Shown: positions 7,740 through 10,664 of the stretch, one piece after another
How the letters are laid out: every line of letters starts with the position of its first letter
Position numbering within the stretch: position 1 is the first letter of the stretch
Assembly: GCA_002215645.1 (NCBI GenBank)
Contig: NGFI01000010.1
Coordinates: forward strand, 62,001 to 126,000
Source: Gemmatimonadetes bacterium 2013_60CM_65_52
Lineage (GTDB): Bacteria > Gemmatimonadota > Gemmatimonadetes > Gemmatimonadales > Gemmatimonadaceae
Length of the DNA stretch: 64,000 nt
Direction of reading: 5' to 3'
Translations under genes and position numbers: made by a program
Notes under the pieces: generated by a model
The model's input: the letters and a program-made list of their open reading frames with translations, nothing else
Told to the model about the DNA's origin: nothing
Database searches by the model: none

Positions 7740-10664
7740 TCAGAACGACAATCCGTATGCGAGATACACTGAACCCCTCGCGCCGCCCGCCCGTCCAACC
7801 ACCGGCAGTCCGAAACCCACCCTGATATTCTGTGGCGTGTCGTAATCCAGCACTGCGGCCGACTGGACCAGCTCCGCACCCACTGCCCCGATGGTCTTCC
7901 CGATCACGCCCGTGGGAGCACAGAGATTCCGAACGTACGTCGAATCGGAGCAGGTCGCGACACCGGCGTCGGCGAAGAAGCTCACGGACGAACGATCCAG
8001 AAAGAACGGCAGCGACCCGATGCCCGCCGCCGGCAGCGCGAGCGGCAGACGATACTCGAACGTCCCCGTGAGCGCACGATTTCCATAAACCGACCCCGCG
8101 GGAAATCCGCGCACGCCAAACGTGCGCCGCCCTTCCCCGATCACGTAGCCCGGCAGAATCTGAATCGTGGTGCCGCTCACGCCGCCCACCTGGAACGCAG
8201 ACGCCGATCGGGAATCGGCGATGCCGCCGGCCACGCGAAGGGCGACGACGTGATGCGCAAACCCTGGAAAATCGAGGCTCTTGTAGAGCGACGTCACGCC
8301 GATGAGGCTCGCCGAACGGCTCGTGCCGGGAATGTCGCTGCGCCAACGCTCGCGCGCGGTGAGCGACACCGAGATGCCGTCCTCCGGCGAGATGCTCAGC
8401 GTGGGACGCTGGAGATTCGACCAGCCCGTTGCGACGAACACGCTCGGGAACACGTATCCGCGCGAGAACGCAGAGTCGAGCTGCTTGAGAAACTGATCGG
8501 GATCGGAGAAGAAATTTCGGTGCTCCACGGCGGCGCCCACCGACATGGACGACGACGTACGCACGCGCGGACGCGTGAAGGTCGTGGCCAGCGACGCACT
8601 CTGCGTGCGCCGCAGCAGCGTGCCCAGACGCTCGGCGGTGCCGCCGTTGAACAGGTCAAACTCCCCGGTGAAATCCTGCGACAGGTTGAGATCGATCAGG
8701 GGCTGCCTGAAGCCGGCGTAGCGATACGTGAAGCGCCCGGTCGGAAAGGAGCCGGTCGTCGGCAGGGCGACGAAGCCGTCGTACAGGTGGCGATAGACGA
8801 CATCGTGCCCCGCCGTGGAGGCGCCAAGTCGCACGCCGCGCCCGGGCGCCTGCTCGACGACGGGATACCAGTAGGTAGGCAGCACGCTTCGCCACGCGTG
8901 ATACGCGTGGTAATCGCCGGCGGCGAGTGGCTGGGGCTGCGGGACGCGCAGTGTGTCCGCGCGGGCGGCGGCAGTACCTGGAAACGTCAACGTCGACGCA
9001 GGCGCCATGCCGACGTGAAAGCCATCCGCACGAAGGGTCACTGCGGCGAGACGATCTCCACGCGGCGAATACTCCGGCGTGTACATGTTCTCCGCGCCAC
9101 CCTCTCGAGCGACGGACGCTTCACGCGCAGTTGGATGTGCGCGGCCGCGCGCGAGCGCAGGCGTCCCCGTGACCTCGCTGGTGTAGATGACGAACGCACC
9201 ATCCAGCGACCACGATGGCGACGACAATATCGAGGCCGCGCGGTCGAGCACTTCTGCGACGGAGCTCGCGACGTCGATGACCTCGAGCGTGAACACGCCG
9301 CCGTGCTGCCGATGAATCGCGGCGATGAACCGCCCATCCGGCGACCAGCGAGGCTCGCTCCAGGTCTCGTCAGACTCCGCGTCGCGCAGGTACCGCCGCT
9401 GCGTCGTCGTGGAATCCAGCAGCATGAGGCTCGCGCGTGTCGGCGCGAACTGTACGGCGATGATGGTGCCGTCGTTTCGAACATCGGGCTGACTCAAACG
9501 AAGCCCACTCGTGAGACGTTGCTGACGTCCACCACGCTCGACGTAGAGGTCGGTGCGCAGCTCGTAGGGTGACGTGAAGTCGAGCTGCGCGAAGAGCAGA
9601 CCTCCACCGGGCCACGGGACGCTGGCGCCGAGTGAGTTGCGTCGGCTGATGCGATGTCGATTTCCGGCGAGGTCGACGCGATAGAGCGCGGGCGACGAGC
9701 GGCCGTCGTTGGACGCATACACAAGCGTCGTGTCGTCGACCCAGCGCGGGTCGAGCGCGGCGTAGCCGTGCGTGGTGAGCTCGCGCCATCCTGCGAGAGG
9801 CGGACGATAGTCGCTCACACTCTTCTGTACGGAGTCGCGCCACTTCTCGAACGCATCATGAAACGAGATGCCGAACGATCGGCGCGCCTCCGCATCCAGT
9901 GCGAATGGAAGAATGAAAGCGCTCTGCGCATCGACGAAGTGACGAAGACTCGTGTCGCCATAGACGCTGGCGAGGTAGTCCACAAAGAGCGAGCCGAATG
10001 CGTATGCGCGCACGCCACCGGGAAAGACTGGTGTGCCGAGGCTCAGCTCATTGAGGTTGGGGAGGCGATGCTCGGCGGCGGCGGTTTGCGCGAGGAGCCG
10101 ATGCTCGGAGTCCTTGAGCCGCCCGCCTTCGGTGAGCTTGGACTCGTAGTAGACGGCAAGTCCCTCGGTGAGCCATGCGGGTCCGTAAAGATTCGGGAAG
10201 AGCGCCGGCCCGCGGCCGAAAATGTGTTGGGCGAGACTCCAGAGCCCGCGGGTGCGGTCGAGATGGAAGATGTGCGTGAGCTCGTGGGTGAGGACGAGCT
10301 GGAGCCAGTCCTCGTTGAGACGCAGCGACTCGTTCGCGACCGGAGGCGTTGCGAAGATGACGATGCGGTTGGTGGGAACGGGCGTGGCGTAGCCGTTGGA
10401 ATAATCCGCATCGTCGGTGACGACCAGGTCGATGCGCCCGCGAGGCTCCTTCAAATCGCGCGCAATGAGTGAATACGCACGCTCGGCGTAGGCTCCAGCG
10501 ACGCGTCCTTCACGCTCGAGGCCTTTCGGCACATGCACATTGAAGTGCGCAGTCTCGAGGGTGAGGTAGCGATGATAGGGAGCAGGTTGCGCAGATGTCG
10601 TGGGGGCGAGGAACACAAGCACAAATAACAACAGTAGGGAAAACCAGTATCCGGTACTCGGCAC
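7740..10664 (-). CDS. Exported zinc metalloprotease - TolB-like propeller - Omp85-like beta-barrel protein
   Basis: 974 aa if started at the GTG at 10664. Order: signal peptide (hydrophobic run about 7-20, TTSAQ cleavage region); gluzincin peptidase with HELTH at 127-131 and the third zinc ligand in LTEGLAVYYE (E167); PD40/WD40-like propeller blades such as EPRWSPDGRFIAAI, SPSWSLDGAFVIY and PEYSPRGDRLAAV; and a C-terminal barrel of surface-antigen/BamA type (GEGRRTFGVRGFPAGSVYG, ending YLAYGLSF). It should sit in the outer membrane with the protease and propeller in the periplasm. The frame stays open upstream through a repeat, but those residues are translated repeat and were excluded. The start codon itself lies in the repeat arm. 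Confidence 0.85.
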   Translation of the reverse strand: MPSTGYWFSLLLLFVLVFLAPTTSAQPAPYHRYLTLETAHFNVHVPKGLEREGRVAGAYAERAYSLIARDLKEPRGRIDLVVTDDADYSNGYATPVPTNRIVIFATPPVANESLRLNEDWLQLVLTHELTHIFHLDRTRGLWSLAQHIFGRGPALFPNLYGPAWLTEGLAVYYESKLTEGGRLKDSEHRLLAQTAAAEHRLPNLNELSLGTPVFPGGVRAYAFGSLFVDYLASVYGDTSLRHFVDAQSAFILPFALDAEARRSFGISFHDAFEKWRDSVQKSVSDYRPPLAGWRELTTHGYAALDPRWVDDTTLVYASNDGRSSPALYRVDLAGNRHRISRRNSLGASVPWPGGGLLFAQLDFTSPYELRTDLYVERGGRQQRLTSGLRLSQPDVRNDGTIIAVQFAPTRASLMLLDSTTTQRRYLRDAESDETWSEPRWSPDGRFIAAIHRQHGGVFTLEVIDVASSVAEVLDRAASILSSPSWSLDGAFVIYTSEVTGTPALARGRAHPTAREASVAREGGAENMYTPEYSPRGDRLAAVTLRADGFHVGMAPASTLTFPGTAAARADTLRVPQPQPLAAGDYHAYHAWRSVLPTYWYPVVEQAPGRGVRLGASTAGHDVVYRHLYDGFVALPTTGSFPTGRFTYRYAGFRQPLIDLNLSQDFTGEFDLFNGGTAERLGTLLRRTQSASLATTFTRPRVRTSSSMSVGAAVEHRNFFSDPDQFLKQLDSAFSRGYVFPSVFVATGWSNLQRPTLSISPEDGISVSLTARERWRSDIPGTSRSASLIGVTSLYKSLDFPGFAHHVVALRVAGGIADSRSASAFQVGGVSGTTIQILPGYVIGEGRRTFGVRGFPAGSVYGNRALTGTFEYRLPLALPAAGIGSLPFFLDRSSVSFFADAGVATCSDSTYVRNLCAPTGVIGKTIGAVGAELVQSAAVLDYDTPQNIRVGFGLPVVGRAGGARGSVYLAYGLSF

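Follow-up and report, generated by a model that had tools for sequence, protein, structure and literature searches.

Does a single polypeptide of this genome truly join a zinc peptidase to a beta-propeller and an outer-membrane barrel, and if so, what might such a chain do in the cell envelope? The window analysed here is a stretch of 64,000 nucleotides from a genome of 4.2 Mb in 14 contigs, and the gene that raises the question occupies positions 7740-10664 on its minus strand, with 974 codons and a stop. An initial annotation made from the sequence had proposed that a protease with a gluzincin site, TolB-like blades and an Omp85-like barrel occur together in this chain, and had suggested a self-anchored protease or assembly factor acting at its own barrel. 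The best reading of our results is that the product is a peptidase-bearing WD40-Omp85 protein. It is real and conserved, its peptidase is probably active, and it belongs to an Omp85 kind that is known but has been little studied.

We relied on two alignments and one additional sample of orthologues. Alignment A1 has 27 rows, comprising the window protein and 26 of 29 other loci (L004-L032), with L015, L019 and L020 excluded as truncated or interrupted. Alignment A2 has 64 rows and uses 63 of 80 loci, the other 17 being cut by contig ends or simply unused; the named relatives among its source loci are nearly all Gemmatimonadota assemblies. The additional sample consists of 40 further orthologues chosen from the listed phylum-wide matches outside the protein's own family, and thus represents other families and orders. 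Retrieval of A1 and of the 40 orthologues was independent of the zinc motif, while the A2 loci were fetched by patterns that include it. An AlphaFold2 model of the 974-aa protein built from the 64-row alignment reached a mean pLDDT of 87.9 and a pTM of 0.89, and superseded a single-sequence model that was useless (pLDDT 32.2). Searches of the single protein with Pfam and NCBIfam would miss both the barrel and the peptidase family; these two parts were established by other routes.

The translation of 7740-10664 (minus strand) contains zero stops over its 974 residues, and the model resolves three domains within this one open frame, so the single chain proposed in the initial annotation holds. 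GTG at 10664 is the likeliest start among several candidates. The start codon is uncertain since this GTG lies inside a dispersed repeat and the frame is open upstream to 10925. Residues 1-26 (10587-10664, minus strand) are a likely signal peptide on the evidence of a hydrophobic run followed by TTSA before Q; hydrophobic leaders are found at the matching place in the orthologue rows of A1, and residues 1-23 have pLDDT values below 50 in the model. The palindromic repeat, which lies between the gene and an upstream amidase gene (10640-10925, minus strand) and overlaps the putative start codon, has 67 matches in the genome and 4 core copies within the window. The putative GTG falls within an inverted copy at 10645-10668, so the 5' end of the gene may have been rewritten by the repeat. 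It is also seen at 61674-61697. A scan for promoters and terminators gave numbers near chance.

Residues ∼27-285 (9810-10586, minus strand) make up a predicted gluzincin-type metallopeptidase domain, modelled with pLDDT mostly above 90. The HELTH motif at residues 127-131 (10272-10286, minus strand) is borne on a helix from 120 to 135, and E167 (10164-10166, minus strand), within WLTEGLA at residues 164-170, on a second helix from 163 to 177. From the roles known in this family we take H127 and H131 to be the zinc histidines, E128 the catalytic glutamate and E167 the third zinc ligand of gluzincins. All four residues are invariant in the 27 rows of A1 and in 40/40 of the further orthologues; they are likewise present in 64/64 rows of A2, a count that is not independent since the retrieval patterns contain the zinc motif. 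Not one of the 67 motif-independent rows lacks any residue of the site. The HELTH and LTEGLA site named in the initial annotation is thus borne out, including the catalytic glutamate that homologues might have lacked, and zinc-site conservation in orthologues retrieved independently of the motif rules out both a chance HExxH and a decayed site in relatives. The zinc site is probably active, as far as conservation can indicate.

Assignment of this domain to a known peptidase family depended on comparison of profiles. Pfam reported no peptidase domain in the 974-aa protein, and among the 27 orthologues it found Peptidase_MA_2 (PF13485) in a single one, weakly. For M48 (PF01435) there was no Pfam match in the 974-aa protein and one match among the 27 orthologues (E 0.023), and NCBIfam returned weak HtpX matches (E 0.029 and 0.15); two M48 matches in the genome are both located elsewhere than this gene. 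When the A1 peptidase slice was compared by hhalign with 25 genomic Peptidase_MA_2 proteins, the probability was 97.9 with an E value of 6e-13, and in the alignment the zinc motif, the E-G segment and their surroundings are paired. The protein has the HExxH and downstream glutamate ligand of Peptidase_MA_2 gluzincins but lacks a direct Pfam match to them, and an HMM of the peptidase slice matched just 2/25 of the Peptidase_MA_2 proteins (E < 1e-3). The structure-comparison matches listed span residues 286-562 and 585-973 and hardly cover 27-285; zincins are absent among these listed matches, which are taken up by the propeller and the barrel, and their absence does not point to a new fold.

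A TolB-like beta-propeller follows at residues ∼286-562 (8979-9809, minus strand), with strands modelled from 302 to 555. PD40 (6e-6) was the only domain that Pfam saw in the 974-aa protein, and NCBIfam matched TolB at residues 383-554 (2.2e-16); by Pfam, PD40 is present in 24/27 orthologues. Structure comparison with TolB (1crz) gave a Z score of 25.2 and an rmsd of 2.5 over 235 aligned residues, with 1crz matched in its propeller part alone (from about its residue 150). Sequence-based matches among solved structures were to propellers only. The TolB-like blades of the initial annotation are therefore well founded. A TolB_N match elsewhere in the genome falls in a protein that contains repeats and is not evidently a TolB, and no claim on TolB follows from it.

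The C-terminal part, residues ∼595-974 (7743-8882, minus strand), is predicted to form a 16-stranded Omp85-type outer-membrane barrel, with all 16 strands between residues 600 and 970. Its structural matches include BamA and SAM barrels at Z scores of about 20-22, with BamA 8xnb at Z 21.7 and an rmsd of 4.2 over 315 aligned residues, and Foldseek results were concordant for both the barrel (BamA) and the propeller (TolB). The chain ends in phenylalanine, as do 40/40 of the more distant orthologues. The loop-6 motif of Omp85 proteins is (V/I)RG(F/Y), and VRGF is found at residues 851-854 (8103-8114, minus strand), just after a segment of low pLDDT at 831-845; R852 and G853 are invariant in 27/27 rows of A1 and 40/40 further orthologues. 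Pfam did not report the barrel in the 974-aa protein, and found Omp85 in only 2/27 orthologues, weakly. By hhalign, the A1 barrel slice matched 33 genomic Omp85 proteins with a probability of 94.1 (E 1.3e-7), whereas five off-target slice comparisons stayed at or below 0.6. The barrel-slice HMM matched 1/33 of these Omp85 proteins (E < 1e-3), and none of 41 shuffled decoys passed with the peptidase, propeller or barrel slice HMMs. Given strong hhalign matches on the one hand and few HMM matches to Peptidase_MA_2 and Omp85 members on the other, we regard the direct relation in sequence between these two parts and the known families as real but distant. The barrel that the initial annotation expected a structure model to contain is present.

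No POTRA domain is present in the model: peptidase and propeller account for residues 27-562, and what is left before the barrel is a linker of 32 residues at 563-594 (8883-8978, minus strand), too short for such a domain. The propeller thus stands directly N-terminal to the barrel, which is the layout of WD40-Omp85 proteins. In the A2 rows, retrieved with patterns that include the zinc motif, invariant columns number 30/259 in the peptidase, 4/277 in the propeller and 20/380 in the barrel, and by this measure the chain is best conserved in its peptidase.

PF00149, presumably the calcineurin-like phosphoesterase family, was unmatched in the 974-aa protein by Pfam at E values up to 10. It is the family that defines the 'Metallo' subfamily, called metalloprotease, among the ten subfamilies into which Heinz and Lithgow split the Omp85 superfamily in 2014 (PMC4104836), and our protein thus falls outside that subfamily even though both fuse an enzyme domain to an Omp85 barrel. 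The same paper names a POTRA-free WD40-Omp85 subfamily with a TolB-like propeller N-terminal to the barrel, so the propeller and barrel part of the 974-aa protein is not a new architecture. Its main text describes no peptidase on WD40-Omp85 proteins, such as the 974-aa protein carries: 'peptidase', 'zinc' and 'HExxH' have 0 occurrences there, and 'Gemmatimona' is absent from PMC4104836. Within the open-licence literature we came upon no paper that describes a WD40-Omp85 protein with a peptidase, and none joining PD40 with Omp85, or Peptidase MA with a beta propeller and an outer-membrane barrel. PMC11116518 defines the superfamily as having one or more POTRA domains; PMC4104836 accepts subfamilies without them. 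The patatin-Omp85 protein PlpD also has an enzyme domain, periplasmic in its case, on an Omp85 barrel (PMC11116518), but it is a phospholipase with POTRA and without a propeller, whereas the 974-aa protein has a peptidase and a propeller and no POTRA. TolB shares the propeller fold and has neither barrel nor peptidase.

Relatives of the protein are widespread in the phylum. The A2 model matches 286 of 295 sampled Gemmatimonadota genomes at 1e-10; about 200 of the 295 (hand count) have a match better than 1e-100, which we took as full-length orthologues, the rest have weaker matches to paralogues, and 9 have nothing. By this hand count, roughly one in three of the sampled genomes has no full-length orthologue. 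Two classes of paralogues with the same layout were compared with A2. Class B (alignment A3, 13 longer proteins) shows homology to A2 along 887 columns (E 4.6e-42) and keeps both the zinc site and the loop-6 RG in 13/13, and by Pfam has PD40 in 13/13 and Omp85 in 8/13, which links the 974-aa protein to Omp85 members by a second route. Class C (alignment A4; L056, L188, L189 and L191-L193, one of the six being in the protein's own genome) matches A2 with an E value of 1.6e-55 over the peptidase, the propeller and the opening portion of the barrel. It keeps the zinc site in 6/6, and no (V/I)RG(F/Y) motif is recognisable in the C-terminal part of the six proteins. The peptidase-slice and propeller-slice HMMs each match all 13 class B and all 6 class C proteins (E < 1e-3), and the barrel-slice HMM matches 11/13 of class B and 0/6 of class C. 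The class C barrel may be degenerate or remodelled, to judge by these profiles. A search of plasmids with the 974-aa protein gave no match, and one with a class B protein gave 69 records, the best being a relative on plasmid pSR116 of Salinibacter ruber (Rhodothermota; L268:2911-4812). This 633-aa protein, annotated as basic secretory protein-like, ends after the propeller and has no barrel; the gene that follows it is serine-carboxypeptidase-like by Pfam and likewise encodes no barrel.

What the protein does can be approached through these features. It is likely that the chain is an outer-membrane-anchored, periplasm-facing and active peptidase, a view that draws on conservation and on analogy with known Omp85 proteins. 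For the self-anchored protease of the initial annotation this means that the anchor is supported by the barrel, while the protease part stays conditional on a zinc activity to which conservation points. Peptidase and propeller are placed in the periplasm below the barrel by analogy with PlpD and with the N-terminal domains of Omp85 proteins. The signal peptide would take the chain into the periplasm, BAM would insert the barrel, and the N-terminal 590 residues would remain periplasmic as such domains do. The usual periplasmic POTRA domains would be replaced by the TolB-like propeller, with the zinc metallopeptidase ahead of it. As a likely binding platform, the propeller might recognise a partner or substrate (an outer-membrane protein, a lipoprotein or a peptidoglycan-linked protein) and hold it at the peptidase, the barrel serving mainly as anchor and platform.

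In E. coli, the zinc peptidase BepA cleaves late-stalled outer-membrane proteins at BAM (PMC13067283), and so acts next to an Omp85 barrel, as the peptidase of the 974-aa protein would. It belongs to family M48 and is a periplasmic protein in its own right, whereas here the peptidase lies within the barrel chain and has no Pfam M48 match. By this analogy, the function we favour, tentatively, is that of an envelope quality-control protease working like BepA, which would serve envelope maintenance by cleaving stalled or damaged envelope proteins beside the outer membrane, in one membrane chain; this more specific role is plausible but less likely than not. Processing of substrates at the protein's own barrel, as first suggested, is possible. 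The supporting neighbours of the gene, an amidase and, further away, AnmK, are cell-wall genes. A much broader proposal seems to us improbable as a whole. It holds that the Gemmatimonadota proteins joining a propeller to an Omp85 barrel make up, at heart, a so far unrecognised family of zinc peptidases anchored in the outer membrane, divided into three or more paralogous classes, in which a single chain would do the work of BepA, BamB and BamA, detecting stalled clients and cleaving them at its own barrel seam.

The same neighbours lead to another possibility, namely a cell-wall or lipoprotein processing enzyme partnered with the amidase, which we consider unlikely. The gene directly upstream (10922-12790, minus strand) encodes an Amidase_3 protein, an N-acetylmuramoyl-L-alanine amidase (Pfam 2.8e-32), and is found at the same place and strand in 19/20 closer relatives. 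TolB binds the peptidoglycan-associated lipoprotein Pal, and TolB/Pal complexes are among the Foldseek matches. However, the amidase adjoins the gene in just 13/40 of the more distant relatives, and its absence from most of them makes the cell-wall link weak. Proximity alone says little, since ribonucleotide reductase, downstream, is as regular a neighbour, lying within the fetched stretch in 16/20 closer and 29/40 distant relatives (hand counts). Near the amidase we also observed AnmK (anhydro-MurNAc kinase; 18013-19818, minus strand), and AnmK homologues near the orthologue in several relatives, the two genes hinting at a cell-wall recycling neighbourhood.

A dedicated assembly or translocation factor, with the propeller replacing BamB and POTRA and the peptidase trimming or clearing a client at the barrel, is less probable still. 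Heinz and Lithgow compared WD40-Omp85 with a fusion of BamA and BamB (PMC4104836), and the invariant loop-6 RG of the barrel is in keeping with such a role. Against it, the model has no POTRA domain, Pfam strongly matches four further Omp85 proteins in the genome, and conservation in the A2 rows is lower for the barrel than for the peptidase. Class C, moreover, has kept its zinc site, although its C-terminal part shows no recognisable loop-6 motif and is not significantly matched by the barrel model, suggesting that the enzyme is what selection keeps. A surface or secreted protease, whose barrel would export the peptidase and propeller to act on external proteins, is the least probable of these readings: the barrel-less S. 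ruber relative shows that the front domains can exist without a barrel and an earlier proposal assigned PlpD to type V secretion, but the PlpD enzyme domain, once thought exported, was found only in the periplasm, export of folded domains through the closed Omp85 barrel was judged unfavourable (PMC11116518), and our model has folded globular domains with no extended passenger.

A periplasm-facing peptidase anchored by its own barrel would bear on two wider matters. The WD40-like and metalloprotease Omp85 subfamilies, recorded since 2014, are described in PMC11116518 as still not well characterised, and the strictly conserved zinc site offers a testable enzymatic function for one non-POTRA Omp85 subfamily. 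A protease covalently attached to an Omp85 barrel would also be a simple system for asking how envelope proteases recognise failing outer-membrane proteins, an open question according to PMC13067283.

Several minor observations concern individual loci. The orthologue at L019 (G013) has an in-frame TGA in the matched stretch and lacks its N-terminus, and is possibly a pseudogene or an assembly error. A full-length orthologue with 36% identity was seen at L117, in a record titled Candidatus Kuenenia stuttgartiensis; a mislabelled record or mixed assembly is more likely here than transfer. Within the window, a divergent cluster at 12610-18023 (plus strand) is a phospho-signalling cluster encoding a zinc-ribbon FHA protein, a Ser/Thr kinase, a PP2C phosphatase and a trypsin-like peptidase joined to an FHA domain. 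The product of the gene at 611-3826 (minus strand) has 1071 aa and carries Sacsin and NO VEIN C-terminal domains.
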